DNA of 64,000 bases from Pseudofrankia inefficax (GTDB lineage: Bacteria; Actinomycetota; Actinomycetes; Frankiales; Frankiaceae): the NCBI RefSeq assembly GCF_000166135.1, contig NC_014666.1, forward strand, positions 3,038,001 through 3,102,000, read 5' to 3'. Shown piece by piece: positions 35,392-40,984 of this stretch. A program made the position numbers and the translations under genes. The stretch's first letter is position 1, and every line of letters begins with the position of its first letter. A model generated the notes under the pieces. The model worked only from the letters and a program-made list of their open reading frames with translations, did no database searches and had not been told where the DNA came from.

Positions 35392-36216
35392 CTATACCTC
35401 GGCCGGCGGCAGGGCCAGCGTCCGCCCGGTGACGGCCTTGTAGTCGGCCTCCAGCTGCGCGAGGTTCACGCCCTCCAGGAACGTCTTCGAGCCCAGGTGC
35501 TCCGGCCAGATCACCACCCACGCCTCCTCGACGAGCGGGGTGCCCTGGACCTTTCCGTTCCAGAACGACGGCGCGAACTCGGTCTCGGTGCCCCAGGTGA
35601 TGAACCGGACGTCGGGCGTGTAGCCGCCGGCCAGGATCGCGTGGCCGCCGTCGATCTTCGACCCGCGGACGTCGGTCCAGGGCTTGTGCGCGGCGAACTC
35701 ATCCTGGTTGGCGTCGAGCACGGTGATGCCCAGCCAGATCCCGCCGAAGATGGCGAGCGCTGCCTGCACCTCGGCGAGGTTGGTGTGGTCGACGGTCGCG
35801 AAGGCCACCGCCTTGACCCCGTCGGGGCCACCGTTGACGTGCAGGTACTCCAGGCCGGTCTGGATTTCCATGCCCTGGTCCTGGCCGCTGCCGGGGCCGT
35901 TGTCGTCGGCCGTGCCCGCGGGGTCGAAACCCGGGTTCTGGGTCTGGTAGAACTCCCAGACCTCGCGCTGGGACGGGTAGTTCTCGGTCGAGAGGTTCGC
36001 CGTGACGAGACGGCGCAGGTTCGCCCAGGTGACGGCGTTGCAGTCACCGGCGACGTCGTTGCCGAGCACCTGCCAGTCGCTGAGCTTCGCCAGGTAGTCC
36101 TCGGTCTTCGGGTGCGTGGGGACCGGTTTGCGGCCCAGAGCAGACGGGGCGACGAAGGTGCTCAGTCGCAGCGCCGGAGCCTGCTTCGGCGCGCGGCGAC
36201 CGTACTTGAATGGCAT
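35392..36216 (-). CDS. Papain-like cysteine-peptidase-fold protein of unknown function
   Basis: The 274-residue protein has no signal peptide. VLGNDVAGDCNAVTWANL places Cys59 at the start of a helix and KIDGGHAILAGGY gives His192, as in papain-fold enzymes; ITWGTETEF near 206-214 recalls the papain NSWG motif, with Ile instead of Asn. Two catalytic residues are thus visible and the third is changed. ATG 36216 is preceded by AAAGGG. I cannot name a family with certainty, and neighbours give no hint. Confidence 0.65.
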   Translation of the reverse strand: MPFKYGRRAPKQAPALRLSTFVAPSALGRKPVPTHPKTEDYLAKLSDWQVLGNDVAGDCNAVTWANLRRLVTANLSTENYPSQREVWEFYQTQNPGFDPAGTADDNGPGSGQDQGMEIQTGLEYLHVNGGPDGVKAVAFATVDHTNLAEVQAALAIFGGIWLGITVLDANQDEFAAHKPWTDVRGSKIDGGHAILAGGYTPDVRFITWGTETEFAPSFWNGKVQGTPLVEEAWVVIWPEHLGSKTFLEGVNLAQLEADYKAVTGRTLALPPAEV

Positions 36217-36443: not shown

Positions 36444-37847
36444 TCACGGTCGCGCGGGGGAGGAGCCACGGTCGATCGGAAGTCTGACCCACACCACGGT
36501 GTCGCCGGGCCGCGAGTCGATGCCGATCGTTCCGCCGTGCCGTTCCTCGATGATGCGCCGGACGATGTCCAGGCCGAGCCCGGTGCCCTTGCCGACGTCC
36601 TTCGTGGTGAAAAACGCCTCGAACGCCCGGGCCCGCACCTCTGGCGGCATTCCGGGACCGGTGTCGCCGACCTCGACCACGACGGCGTCACCGTCGAGCC
36701 GGGTGGTGAGGCGCAGGGTGCCGGCACCGTCCATGGCGTCGAGCGCGTTGTCGATGAGGTTCGTCCAGGCCTGGTTGAGCTCGCCGGCGTAGGCGCTGAT
36801 CCGGGGGACCTCCTGACCGAACCGGCGTTCCACCCGCAGGCCGCCGCGCATCTTGTGCCCCAGCATGACCAGGGTGCTTTCCAGGCCCTCGACGAGGTCG
36901 GTGTCCTGCATCGACGCGCGGTCCAGCTGGGAGTACGACCGGACCGCGCCGACGAGCTCGGAGACCCGGCGCGTCGAGCTGCTCACCACACCCAGCAGAT
37001 CGGTGGCGGCGAAGGTGCTCGCGACCCAGACGAGGGCCGGGGCCAGGGCGGGGCCGGTCACCACGTCCGCCACCCGCTCGCACCAGGCGACGTCGATCCC
37101 GGCCTTGGCCAGCACCGGAGCGATCGACCAGCCCTGGCTCACGCCGTGGCCGGTGAGCCAGGACCCCAGGTCCTCCTGCAGGTCCGAGAGGTCCAGCGGG
37201 TCCAGCGGCGCCGAGGGGGCGGCCACCTCGACCCGCAGCTGGTCCAGCGCCCGGAACTGGTCGGCGGCCAGGTCCCCGTCGGCCAGCTGGCGCAGCGACG
37301 ACAGGAGCGTGTCGCAGGTGTCCTTGAGCGCGGCCACCGCCCGCGCGGCCGCCGCGGCCGGGTTGTTGATCTCATGGGCGAGGCCGGCGGCGAGCGTGCC
37401 CAGGGTGACCAGGGCGTCGCGCTGGCGCACGGCCGACTCGATGCTGCGGGCGGTCCCGAACAGGCCCTCGATGATGTGCATGCCGAACGGGAACCACGAC
37501 TCGGTCAGCGCGCGCAGATCCGTCGCGGCGACCCGGAAGAGCCGCCCCGCGGTGCGGGCCCGCCCGGTCGCCAGGTAGACGCCGCGGGCGTCCCAGGCCC
37601 GGAAGCCGCCGGCCCAGCGGCCCGGGCTCGCCATCTGGCCGACGACCGACTCGTCCTGCGCCGTCCGGCGCACCAACTCGATCGCGCCGTCGAGCAGCAC
37701 CCACCAGAAGTCCGCGGGATCGCCGTGGCGGAACAGCTCCTGGCCCGCCTCGAACCTCAGCTCGACGCCCACGGCGAGAAGCTGTTCGAGCTGCTGGTCG
37801 GTGAGCCCGTCGAAAAGGCCCACCGCGTGAAGGTCGCTGGCCCGCAT
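36444..37847 (-). CDS. Cytoplasmic histidine kinase with N-terminal cyclic-nucleotide-binding domain
   Basis: This 467-residue protein has a cNMP-binding-like domain (residues 5-120, LFDGLTDQQLEQLL, LFRHGDPADFWWVLLDG), a dimerisation helix with TLAAGLAHEINNP (phospho-His158) and an ATPase domain with NLIDNALDAMDG, VEVGDTGPGMP and GKGTGLGLDIVRRI. No membrane segment is seen. ATG 37847 lies five bases after the stop of the REC-reductase gene upstream, so the two are cotranscribed. In related cNMP-domain proteins ligand binding alters output; whether this pocket binds cAMP is not clear. Confidence 0.9.
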   Translation of the reverse strand: MRASDLHAVGLFDGLTDQQLEQLLAVGVELRFEAGQELFRHGDPADFWWVLLDGAIELVRRTAQDESVVGQMASPGRWAGGFRAWDARGVYLATGRARTAGRLFRVAATDLRALTESWFPFGMHIIEGLFGTARSIESAVRQRDALVTLGTLAAGLAHEINNPAAAAARAVAALKDTCDTLLSSLRQLADGDLAADQFRALDQLRVEVAAPSAPLDPLDLSDLQEDLGSWLTGHGVSQGWSIAPVLAKAGIDVAWCERVADVVTGPALAPALVWVASTFAATDLLGVVSSSTRRVSELVGAVRSYSQLDRASMQDTDLVEGLESTLVMLGHKMRGGLRVERRFGQEVPRISAYAGELNQAWTNLIDNALDAMDGAGTLRLTTRLDGDAVVVEVGDTGPGMPPEVRARAFEAFFTTKDVGKGTGLGLDIVRRIIEERHGGTIGIDSRPGDTVVWVRLPIDRGSSPARP

Positions 37848-37852
37848 CCCGG

Positions 37853-39505
37853 TCAGCCGAGGAACCGGTGGACCAGCGCGATCGACATCGCTCCGTCGCC
37901 CACGGCCGACGCGACCCGCTTCATCGACTCCAGCCGGACGTCGCCGGCCGCGAAGACGCCGGGAAGGCTGGTCTCCAGCGCCATCGGCGGACGTGGCAGC
38001 GCCCACCGGGCGGCGTAGGCCGGGCTGGTCAGGTCCTGGCCGGTCACGATGAACCCCGCGGGATCACGGGCGACCGCCTCGCCCAGCCACTCGGTGCGCG
38101 GCGCCGCGCCGATGAAGATGAACAGCCAGCTCGCCGGAACCTCCCGGCGGGCGCCCGAGTCGCGGTCCGCGACGGTCAGCGACTCCAGGTGGGTGTCACC
38201 GCCGCAGCCGACGACCTCGCTGCGCAGCGCCACCTCGATGTTGGCCGTCGCGACGATCCGCTCGACCAGGTAGTTCGACATCGAGTCCTCCAGGGCACCG
38301 CCCCGGACCAGGAGCGTGACCCGCTTGGCGTAACGGGCCAGGTTGAGCGCCGCCTGCCCGGCCGAGTTCGCGGCGCCGACGACGAAGACCTCGTCACCCT
38401 CGCACTGCGCGGCGTCGGCGGCGTTGGCGCCGTAGTAGACGCCGCGGCCGATCAGCCCGTCCAGGCCCGGCGCCGCCAGCCGCCGGTAGGAGACGCCCGT
38501 CGCCACGACCACCGACCGCGCCTCGACCTCGCCGGAGCCGGCCAGCCGCACGCCCAGCACCGGGCCGCGCGGCTCGATGCCGACCACCTCGCGGGCGAGC
38601 ACCATCTCCGCGCCGAACCGGGAGACCTGCGCGACCGCGCGATGGGTGAGGTCGGAGCCGGTCAGCCCCTTGGGGAAACCGAGGTAGTTCTCGATCGCCG
38701 CGCTCTGGCTGGCCTGGCCGCCGGGCGCCTCCCGCTCGACGACGACCGTGCTGAGCCCCTCGGAGGCGGCGTAGACCGCGGCGGCCAGGCCGGCCGGGCC
38801 GCCGCCGACGATGCAGACGTCGTACAGCGGCTGCTCGGCCCGGGTGCGGATCCGCAGGGCGTCGGCGAGGTCCAGCGGCGAGGGCGACCTCAGGTTCGGG
38901 CCGTCCGGGACCAGCACCAGCGGCAGGTGGTCCGTGGTAGCGCCGGCCAGCTCGACCAGCCGGCGCGCCTCGGCGTCCCGGTCGATCTCGAACCACAGGT
39001 ATGGCACGTGGTTGCGGTCCAGGAAGGTCTTGACCTCGTGGCTGCGCACCGACCAGCGGTGCCCGACGACGCGCAGGCCGCCCGCGCGGTCCGGGTTGGC
39101 GTGCCGCCAGTCCGTGAGCAGCCCGTCGATGGCCGGGAACAGCCGCTCCTGCGGCGGATCCCAGGGCTTGAGCAGGTAGTAGTCCAGCCCGATGTCGTTG
39201 ATCGCCGCGATGGCGACGTTCGTGTCCGCGTAGGCGGTCAGCAGCAGCTTCTTGGCGCCGGGCGCGTGGGTCTCGGCCTGGCGCAGCAGCTCGATGCCGG
39301 TCATGGCGGGCATCCGCTGGTCGGCGACGATCAGGGCCACCGGCTGGTCGCGCAGCGCCAGCCGGGCCAGCGTCGCCAGCGCCTGCTCGCCGGACGCGGC
39401 GGCGACGACGCGGTATTCGGACCCATACTGACTGTGGAGATCGCGGCTGATCGCCGCCGAGACGTCCGGGTCGTCATCGACCGTCACGATCGTTGGCCTG
39501 CGCAT
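37853..39505 (-). CDS. Receiver domain fused to thioredoxin-reductase-like FAD enzyme
   Basis: At 550 residues it holds three modules: a receiver (1-125; acidic Asp10-12, Asp62 in ADQRMP, Lys113 in LLKPW), a glutaredoxin-like segment (about 145-215, GHRWSVRSHEVKTFLDR) and an FAD/NAD reductase (228-550, CIVGGGPAGLAAAVYAASEG; VVGAANSAGQAALNLAR; GVFAAGDVR). The expected redox CxxC is missing in both: the glutaredoxin-like pair reads Ser-Val-Arg-Ser, and the reductase has GANAADAAQCEG with one Cys. It forms an operon with the kinase, which may phosphorylate it; redox state would be the output or input. Confidence 0.9.
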   Translation of the reverse strand: MRRPTIVTVDDDPDVSAAISRDLHSQYGSEYRVVAAASGEQALATLARLALRDQPVALIVADQRMPAMTGIELLRQAETHAPGAKKLLLTAYADTNVAIAAINDIGLDYYLLKPWDPPQERLFPAIDGLLTDWRHANPDRAGGLRVVGHRWSVRSHEVKTFLDRNHVPYLWFEIDRDAEARRLVELAGATTDHLPLVLVPDGPNLRSPSPLDLADALRIRTRAEQPLYDVCIVGGGPAGLAAAVYAASEGLSTVVVEREAPGGQASQSAAIENYLGFPKGLTGSDLTHRAVAQVSRFGAEMVLAREVVGIEPRGPVLGVRLAGSGEVEARSVVVATGVSYRRLAAPGLDGLIGRGVYYGANAADAAQCEGDEVFVVGAANSAGQAALNLARYAKRVTLLVRGGALEDSMSNYLVERIVATANIEVALRSEVVGCGGDTHLESLTVADRDSGARREVPASWLFIFIGAAPRTEWLGEAVARDPAGFIVTGQDLTSPAYAARWALPRPPMALETSLPGVFAAGDVRLESMKRVASAVGDGAMSIALVHRFLG

Positions 39506-39859
39506 AGGGGCATGCTATTAGCTCCCGAGCGCACTATTTTCATGATCAATCGGGCTGGATCGGCGACTTTCGCGATCTGTTGGGCGGGCGGCTCGCGCCG
39601 CCGAGCGCCCGGGTCGCGCGCCGGGTCCTCCGGGGTGTTGTCCTTCCGTCCGCGGCCGGTCGCCGCTGGGCAAATGCCGGACAGGACATGGACAGTTTTT
39701 CGCATAAATGTCCGAAAGTGGGCATCTGGCACGTTTGGGTGCTCCCGGGCGAGCGACATCGACTAGTTTCACCGGCACACCGGGCCTTTCGGCCGGTGAC
39801 GGGGGGAGACGGCGATCCCGGGCTCGGTGTCGTCGCGGCTTGGACCGGGCTGCCCCACC
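39506..39859. other. Divergent intergenic region, about 350 bp
   Basis: It separates the REC-reductase operon from the LuxR-type regulator gene and should hold both promoters. AT-rich patches occur near 39505-39550 and 39695-39720. A short imperfect hairpin CACCGGGCC-TTTC-GGCCGGTG lies at 39776-39798. No gene is supported. Confidence 0.45.
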
Positions 39860-40984
39860 ATGTCCTCGCCGCCCATGAACCCGGGGCGGAAGGGCGCGGC
39901 GTGCGGCGTGCGCGACGACGAGCTGTTAGGCCTCGGCGAGCTGGGACTGCGGCTGTTCCGGGCGGTGGCACGCGAGCCAGGTAGCGACCTGACTACCCTC
40001 GCCGGACTCACCGGCGATCCGGTCGAGGCCGTCGAGGCGGAGGCGCGGCGCCAGATCGCCGCCGGCCTGCTGACCGACGTCGGCGGCAGGTGGGAGGCCC
40101 GTGACCCGGCCGCGGTCCTGGCCGACCGCCAGGCCCTGGAGCTTCGGTCCCAGCACCAGGCACACCGGGCCGAACGCGCAGCCCTGGCCCGCGCCGGGCT
40201 GCTCGCTGACTACCTGACCGGCCGGCACCACCGGCGTGGCCGGGCGTACGAGGTGCTCAGCCCGCGGCAGATGTGGGCCCGGCTGGCGGAGGTCACCGAG
40301 TCCGCCCAGACCGATCTGCGGTTCCTGCTCGACGGTGGGCCGGCCCCGGCGAACGACCGCGCCGAGGTCGCGGGGGCCCTGGTGCGGGCCGCGGGCCGCG
40401 GGGTGCGCGTCACCGGGGTGTGCGCCCCGTCGCCCGAGGCCCCGCCGGAGCTCGTCCAGCTGCCGCCGCCGAGCCGCGTTCAGGTCTACCCGCACGTCCC
40501 GCTGCGCGCGGTCGTCGTCGACCACGCGACGGCCCTCGTGCCGATCAACGCGCCCCGGCTCGACCGAGGGGGCTACGCGTTCACGTCGCCCGGCCTCGTC
40601 GCGCTGGTCACCAGCCTCGTCGACCTCGTCCACGCCAACGCGGCCCGCGACCCCGCCGGCGGCGTCGGCAGCGTCGTCGGCGCCGAGGGCGCGCCGGACG
40701 CCAGCCCCACCGCCGCTGAGCTGAGCCCGTCACCGGCGCTGCGCCGCCAGGCGATCTGCGACCTGCTCGCCACCGGCGCCCGCGACCCCGAGATCGCCGT
40801 CCGCCTCGGCGTCCCCGTCCGCACGATCCGCCGCGACATCTCCGTGCTGATGGCCCAGACCGGGACGCGCAGCCGGTTCGCCCTCGGTGTCGCGCTCGCC
40901 AACGACCACCTGATGGGCCTCGCCGCCCGCGGCGGCGAGGCCACCCCGCCCCCGGCCGGGCCGCCGATGACCACGGGGCTCTGA
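39860..40984 (+). CDS. Transcriptional regulator with C-terminal LuxR-type HTH
   Basis: The protein of about 374 residues has an N-terminal winged-helix-like part (LGLRLFRAVAREPGSDLTTL), a middle domain resembling TrmB-type effector regions (LDGGPAPANDRAEVAGALVR, GVRVTGVCAP), and a C-terminal helix-turn-helix (ICDLLATGARDPEIAVRLGV, PVRTIRRDISVLMAQTGT). The start is unsure: ATG 39860, ATG 39875 and GTG 39908 are all possible, none with a strong ribosome site. It has a TTA codon at 39926. Its stop lies inside a tandem repeat. Targets are unknown. Confidence 0.82.
   Translation: MSSPPMNPGRKGAACGVRDDELLGLGELGLRLFRAVAREPGSDLTTLAGLTGDPVEAVEAEARRQIAAGLLTDVGGRWEARDPAAVLADRQALELRSQHQAHRAERAALARAGLLADYLTGRHHRRGRAYEVLSPRQMWARLAEVTESAQTDLRFLLDGGPAPANDRAEVAGALVRAAGRGVRVTGVCAPSPEAPPELVQLPPPSRVQVYPHVPLRAVVVDHATALVPINAPRLDRGGYAFTSPGLVALVTSLVDLVHANAARDPAGGVGSVVGAEGAPDASPTAAELSPSPALRRQAICDLLATGARDPEIAVRLGVPVRTIRRDISVLMAQTGTRSRFALGVALANDHLMGLAARGGEATPPPAGPPMTTGL

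Follow-up and report, generated by a model that had tools for sequence, protein, structure and literature searches.

Two-component systems work by phosphotransfer from a histidine to an aspartate. In a 64,000-nucleotide stretch of Pseudofrankia inefficax DNA (contig NC_014666.1, positions 3,038,001 to 3,102,000; hereafter the window), from a genome consisting of a single contig of 8,815,781 bp, we analyzed a gene pair encoding a soluble histidine kinase and a flavoprotein in which a receiver (REC) domain is joined to a glutaredoxin-like domain and a thioredoxin reductase (TrxR)-like module, both devoid of their CxxC motifs. A sequence-only reading of the window had considered such an output to be without a standard name; censuses, however, already list TrxB-type response regulators, namely SCO7298 of Streptomyces coelicolor with its kinase SCO7297, in the order response regulator-histidine kinase (RR-HK) (PMC9739842), and one in thermophilic cyanobacteria (PMC9953108), and the class has also been called REC-thioredoxin reductase (PMC5847659). 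Acid shock strongly induces SCO7298 (PMC2631018), and polysulfide raises the transcription of the same gene, there called trxB3 (PMC9952706). In the open literature, subscription papers being mostly outside that search, we found no mention of missing redox cysteines and no biochemistry on the class, and it is not described in the consulted passages of reviews of Deinococcus thiol reductases and cyanobacterial thioredoxin systems.

The P. inefficax protein belongs to this class, as REC and Pyr_redox_2 domains lie in one chain and a kinase is paired with it. The common ground is the fusion of REC to a TrxR-like module and the RR-HK pair, and five Streptomyces loci (L039, L044, L047, L050, L076) are members of the same family with identical architecture and RR-HK order. 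The name, however, implies a thioredoxin reductase, whereas the surveyed relatives have no CxxC (SCO7298 was compared by description only); the existing class name "TrxB" is misleading.

Other described enzymes resemble the flavoprotein in part. Low-Mr TrxB shares with it the domains for flavin adenine dinucleotide (FAD) and NAD(P)H, at about 30-35% identity and a TM of about 0.9, but the flavoprotein lacks both CxxC and the HRRxxxR motif and scores 214.9 bits with TIGR01292, the NCBIfam TrxB equivalog, against a cut-off of 343.45. AhpF, which uses NADH and has an eroded NADPH 2'-phosphate site, likewise has its TrxR-like FAD module preceded by a thioredoxin-fold domain, and the 2'-phosphate site is eroded in the flavoprotein too. 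In contrast to the latter, AhpF lacks a receiver and contains a CxxC in each of its two parts; the flavoprotein carries S152..S155 and A360..A363 at these sites, and its N-terminal redox-type part is a single mycoredoxin-like fold. TrxR-fold ferredoxin/flavodoxin reductases (FNRs) without CxxC reduce non-thiol partners (PMC10294844). Together with the bacilliredoxin reductase YpdA, which shares the fold and the missing CxxC, FNRs provide a precedent for non-dithiol chemistry, although the family described here is far nearer TrxB in sequence and carries a receiver. Finally, the identical glutaredoxin-like and TrxR-like module without cysteine pairs is found in proteins named "thioredoxin-disulfide reductase" by NCBI, in which a cyclic-nucleotide-binding (CNB) domain is fused in place of REC and kinase; many of these proteins retain the GE motif of the cassette.

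The flavoprotein retains its nucleotide-binding motifs and has lost both cysteine pairs

The two genes lie in tandem on the minus strand (39505-37853, 550 aa, then 37847-36444, 467 aa), the flavoprotein gene upstream and the kinase gene 5 bp past its stop codon, and they form one operon. The most likely kinase start is the ATG at 37847. Both open reading frames (ORFs) and the domain layout proposed in the sequence-only reading were thus recovered (Table 1). The phosphorylation set of the receiver is complete (D11, D12, D62, T90, K113). For the segment that follows, the Pfam glutaredoxin model gave 14.4 bits (E=0.045) with the single sequence, under the cut-off and too weak alone, but a 53-member profile of the segment matched mycoredoxin Rv3198.1 (2lqo) with E=5.7e-8; as judged by profile comparison, which settles the matter, the segment is a genuine homologue of the glutaredoxin/mycoredoxin domain. 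Its catalytic cysteine is absent, with serine at both CxxC positions. The alignments to 2lqo and to TrxB therefore corroborate the earlier observation of Ser-Val-Arg-Ser instead of CxxC and of a TrxR fold without CxxC.

In the TrxR-like module the FAD-binding GxGxxG and GD motifs are present, G234, G236, G239, G521 and D522 being invariant in 137 relatives, as are S410, Y412 and R530, of which only S410 is common to TrxB. At the position of the TrxB 2'-phosphate motif HRRxxxR the protein reads V400-R401-G402 and the final Arg is gone; R401 alone is kept family-wide. Shortly after the lost CxxC site lies Cys368, a cysteine in 99 of the 137 relatives. In the AlphaFold model (mean predicted local distance difference test, pLDDT, 89.3; predicted TM, pTM, 0.76), Foldseek identified AhpF as the best whole-length structural match, a different orientation of the domains keeping the overall TM low. 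The model is nearer the flavin-reducing form of TrxR (5mh4, TM 0.89) than the flavin-oxidising one (5mjk, TM 0.62).

Table 1. Window coordinates of the two genes, their domains and key residues.
Feature	Position	Strand	Basis
REC-glutaredoxin-like-TrxR-like flavoprotein coding sequence, 550 aa, first of pair	37853..39505	-	ORF, Pfam, full-length relatives
Receiver domain, residues 1-130	39116..39505	-	Pfam Response_reg E=4.5e-16, 59 bits, above cut-off
Asp62, predicted phosphoacceptor	39320..39322	-	Invariant in 55-sequence alignment of HK-type proteins
Glutaredoxin/mycoredoxin-like domain, residues 141-222	38840..39085	-	Profile match to 2lqo; model topology beta-alpha-beta-alpha-beta
Ser152-Val-Arg-Ser155 at CxxC site	39041..39052	-	W-S-V-R-S aligned with W-C-G-Y-C of 2lqo
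TrxR-like FAD/NAD(P)H module, residues 224-550	37856..38836	-	Pyr_redox_2 E=4.9e-34, 118 bits, above cut-off; model pLDDT 89, TM 0.89-0.90 to TrxR structures
Ala360-Asn-Ala-Ala363 at TrxR CxxC site	38417..38428	-	TrxB alignment, Cys at both positions 10/10
NAD(P)-binding motif GAANSAGQAA	38348..38377	-	N380, Q384 invariant in 137 relatives
Soluble CNB histidine kinase coding sequence, 467 aa	36444..37847	-	ORF, Pfam, structural model
CNB (cNMP-type) domain	37497..37841	-	Pfam cNMP_binding 40.6 bits, cut-off 27.5
His158, predicted phosphodonor, H-box AGLAHEINNP	37374..37376	-	H in 59/59 kinases
Helical insertion in DHp hairpin, residues 191-264	37056..37277	-	Structural model
HATPase_c domain	36471..36782	-	Pfam E=1e-25, 91 bits, above cut-off

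Absence of the cysteine pairs is common to the whole family

Relatives were gathered in two samples, the first of 140 distinct proteins from a genome-contig scan and GTDB samples, the second of 69 members from four plasmids and, for the most part, from genomes sampled evenly in three other phyla; the two samples share five genomes, and the second is largely independent. Not one of the 140 or of the 69 has CxxC in the reductase segment, which answers the question, raised in the sequence-only reading, of whether close relatives keep the motif. At the glutaredoxin positions a cysteine pair was found in 0 of 140 relatives, a few having a single Cys at one position, and in the second sample neither position was Cys in any of the 69. 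The columns corresponding to the TrxB CxxC are occupied in 137 relatives mostly by A/S/G and T/S/A/M, with Cys never among the listed residues. As a positive control, two canonical TrxBs in the second sample showed CxxC, and the TrxB of the same genomes keeps CATC. Because TrxBs score 200-217 bits on the family profile and second-sample members at least 377, the two groups separate cleanly. A disulfide reductase with a relocated CxxC was considered and rejected, since every member is without the motif in its active segment and the glutaredoxin-like segment mostly has Ser/Thr.

The relatives sharing this loss come from about ten phyla. At E<=1e-80 the family was detected in 28 of 149 Actinomycetota, 23 of 148 Bacteroidota, 8 of 117 Cyanobacteriota and 29 of 299 Pseudomonadota genomes (the last mostly CNB-fused), fractions that are not strictly comparable since the query was a single protein for Actinomycetota and a profile for the other phyla.

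An intact phosphorylation site goes together with an adjacent kinase

In the first sample, where a kinase was counted as linked if present in the locus within 3 kb, it accompanied 77 of the 79 members with an intact D-[D/E]-D-T-K set (66/67 where both flanks measured at least 1.4 kb) and none of the 60 others, which comprise 24 degenerate receivers, 29 proteins with CNB instead of REC and 7 with neither. With flanks of 1.5 kb, more for plasmids, the second sample yielded a kinase in the fetched locus of 29/32 intact members and of no others. Conversely, of 24 kinase homologues (E<=1e-35, phylum sample), 22 adjoin such a flavoprotein. The link was found in Actinomycetota, Bacteroidota, Cyanobacteriota, Acidobacteriota, Pseudomonadota and Deinococcota, and the same pair, labelled "FAD-dependent oxidoreductase" and "ATP-binding protein", occurs in annotated plasmids of Streptomyces, Gloeothece, Caballeronia and Deinococcus (four phyla). 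Since the kinase is downstream in 69 loci and upstream in 8, the latter mainly from Bacteroidota with one from Gemmatimonadota, the linkage outlasts changes in gene order. Thus the pair and the missing cysteines, whose survey the sequence-only reading had called for, are both conserved across phyla, and this recurrence argues that neither the architecture nor the pairing is due to chance.

In a TrxB-rooted tree the deepest branches are held by kinase-linked members, with many deep forks open or weakly supported, and 20 degenerate receivers (support 100) and 24 CNB-fused members (95) form derived clades. The pseudo-receiver clade is mostly from Actinomycetota and has lost the Asp, Thr or Lys, with no kinase adjacent (L165-L184, L072-L074, L091, L098, L101). 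In the 29 members without kinase in which CNB is fused directly to the glutaredoxin-like and TrxR-like module, the fusion itself suggests that signal flows toward the reductase.

The kinase is soluble and has a predicted helical insertion in its histidine phosphotransfer hairpin

The kinase model (pLDDT 89.4) consists of the CNB domain, a long dimerization and histidine phosphotransfer (DHp) hairpin that includes an additional helical subdomain, and the HATPase domain. With a maximum 19-residue hydropathy of 1.6 and a model without transmembrane helix, the protein is soluble. The N box and G boxes are invariant (N367, D395, G397, G399, G421, G423, G425). HisKA scores 19.3 bits, under the Pfam cut-off; P163 and R294, conserved residues of the two DHp helices, are spaced 129-145 residues apart in 59/59 kinases, and Pfam gives no domain in the insertion, which accounts for part of this stretch and is modelled at the hairpin tip. 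The top PDB kinases align mostly over about 150-300 columns, corresponding to the DHp and catalytic parts. As to the sensor, the Pfam match upholds the earlier assignment as cyclic-nucleotide-type, whereas sensing of a cyclic nucleotide is only weakly indicated: the phosphate-binding-cassette Glu is G81 in the window kinase and E in 10 of the 59 kinases, and because it is not conserved the sensor may not bind cyclic nucleotide. On the same ground cyclic AMP sensing by the kinase was rejected as a candidate. Many CNB-fused flavoproteins, unlike most kinases, retain the GE motif. Some loci combine a single flavoprotein gene with two or three such kinases (three at L189, two at L038 and L059; also L056).

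A UBP-type zinc finger is a recurrent neighbour

A gene for a UBP-type zinc finger (zf-UBP), a domain that in eukaryotes binds the C-terminal Gly-Gly of free ubiquitin, lies within 5 kb in 32 of the 97 loci whose flanks were long enough: 18/51 kinase-linked, 2/18 degenerate, 8/23 CNB-fused and 4/5 with neither. The domain was above the Pfam cut-off in the two examples checked and was recognised elsewhere by a cysteine-pattern search. About 0.2 loci would be expected by chance, a rough figure based on approximately one gene per genome in a Frankia-centred sample and ignoring relatedness. These neighbours span Actinomycetota, Bacteroidota, Cyanobacteriota, Pseudomonadota, Acidobacteriota and Verrucomicrobiota, and the mini-gene stands beside every architectural class of flavoprotein (e.g. 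L003/L031, L204, L067, L080, L221). In the window itself no zf-UBP gene was found.

Elsewhere in the host genome there are a canonical trxB with CATC (L005), a second REC-type flavoprotein and kinase pair at 7.30 Mb (G000:C1:7304858-7306651, L030), and a CNB-fused paralogue at 7.92 Mb which a zf-UBP gene adjoins. The glutaredoxin-like domain of the L030 flavoprotein holds a long Ser/Gly/Pro-rich insertion. Directly downstream of the window kinase (35392-36216, minus strand) is a gene for a 274-aa protein with no Pfam match, in which the motifs GDCNAVTW and GGHAIL suggest a papain-like Cys-His arrangement. On the other side a divergent gene (39827-40984, plus strand) encodes a protein of 385 aa in which a C-terminal segment resembles a helix-turn-helix (weak Pfam matches).

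Discussion

On balance, we lean towards the interpretation that phosphorylation gates an NAD(P)H-flavin oxidoreductase, one that is incapable of the thioredoxin-reductase dithiol relay, since a TrxR without CxxC cannot run it. The idea of a phosphorylation-controlled FAD protein without dithiol chemistry had been put forward from the sequence, and it is supported by the gene linkage, by a phosphorylation site intact only with a kinase and by the family-wide absence of CxxC. In the mechanism we propose, the cytosolic kinase, through its CNB sensor, His158-bearing DHp and HATPase domains, would phosphorylate Asp62 in the receiver of its operon partner. That receiver is joined to mycoredoxin-like and TrxR-like FAD/NAD(P)H modules in what would be the AhpF layout minus both cysteine relays. 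Phosphorylation may rearrange the dimer or the domains and thereby control either partner binding or the reduction of the flavin by NAD(P)H, and electrons would pass to an acceptor other than CxxC; NADH is a plausible donor because the 2'-phosphate site is eroded. The zf-UBP protein would be a frequent third component and a putative partner. Computation establishes the domains, the cysteine loss throughout the family, the linkage to the kinase and the restriction of intact phosphosites to kinase-linked members, whereas we infer phosphotransfer, flavin content, catalysis and the acceptor.

Several observations weigh against this interpretation. Clustering of 828 selected neighbour ORFs, from which zf-UBP was then removed, revealed no conserved electron-acceptor-like neighbour; across phyla only the kinase and zf-UBP were common, other clusters being lineage-specific or belonging to common families. 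Loss of the NADPH 2'-phosphate residues could also mean lost catalysis, and the conformational preference of an AlphaFold model is weak evidence. Moreover, the correlation between receiver state and kinase rests on 2-3 independent losses only: an independent-pair sign test yields that many pairs, and the association is therefore strong in pattern but not in tree-corrected statistics, its Fisher p of 2e-19 carrying no such correction.

Among the alternatives, the one we take most seriously, while considering it rather unlikely, is a non-catalytic output: with FAD and NAD(H) bound, the module would serve as a scaffold or as a sensor of redox state or nucleotides, and flavin state and phosphorylation would jointly control the binding of a partner such as zf-UBP. 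The disappearance of both relays from a protein whose fold and dinucleotide motifs are strictly kept would fit this, as would a small recurrent neighbour that is itself a binding domain (32/97 loci against about 0.2 expected), but the strictly kept NAD(P) site (N380, Q384, R401) and a model competent for hydride transfer suit catalysis equally or better. Cys368 invites the thought of thiol or persulfide chemistry, with this residue and FAD forming a single-cysteine reductase whose substrate might, for instance, be polysulfide. Its occurrence in 99/137 relatives and the polysulfide response of SCO7298 (PMC9952706) speak for such an activity, which we nevertheless regard as improbable: in about 28% of relatives, kinase-linked members included, M, L, Y, F or another residue replaces the cysteine, and induction by polysulfide does not reveal the substrate.

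Receivers can serve as phosphate sinks, and the receiver here might be such a sink, or the flavoprotein might be an input, its FAD/NAD(H) state being read via the receiver onto a kinase with other targets. Tandem kinases beside one flavoprotein at L189, L038 and L059 would be compatible with either arrangement. To this we assign little likelihood, as the kinase shows no consistent linkage to a different response regulator and the direct fusion of CNB to the reductase module suggests that the signal runs to the reductase. Least credible, to the point of being negligible, is a decayed copy of a REC-fused thioredoxin reductase. Catalytic cysteines are indeed gone from a recognisable TrxR fold, yet the loss is common to all 140 and then all 69 relatives, the reading frame is uninterrupted, the motifs for flavin and nucleotide persist and the kinase has been retained; decay is thus refuted by the family survey, unless the whole clade is non-functional.

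The phosphorylation-gated oxidoreductase may be extended, as a tentative and on the whole doubtful proposal, to a widespread system of three parts: by phosphorylation, a soluble kinase would act directly on a flavoenzyme of the AhpF/TrxR fold that lacks its redox cysteines, and zf-UBP would be the substrate or targeting partner. If true, a signal would here feed directly into redox chemistry, with neither DNA binding nor a dithiol relay in between. Members of the class are routinely annotated as thioredoxin reductases, and stress studies assume reduction of thioredoxin or sulfane sulfur (trxB3/SCO7298, PMC9952706); if no class member has either CxxC, these assignments need revisiting. The pair is real and conserved, and would form a still uncharacterised two-component route to a flavin protein rather than to a gene; its kinase-to-flavoprotein link is a clean case, open to testing, of two-component signalling whose output resembles a redox enzyme.

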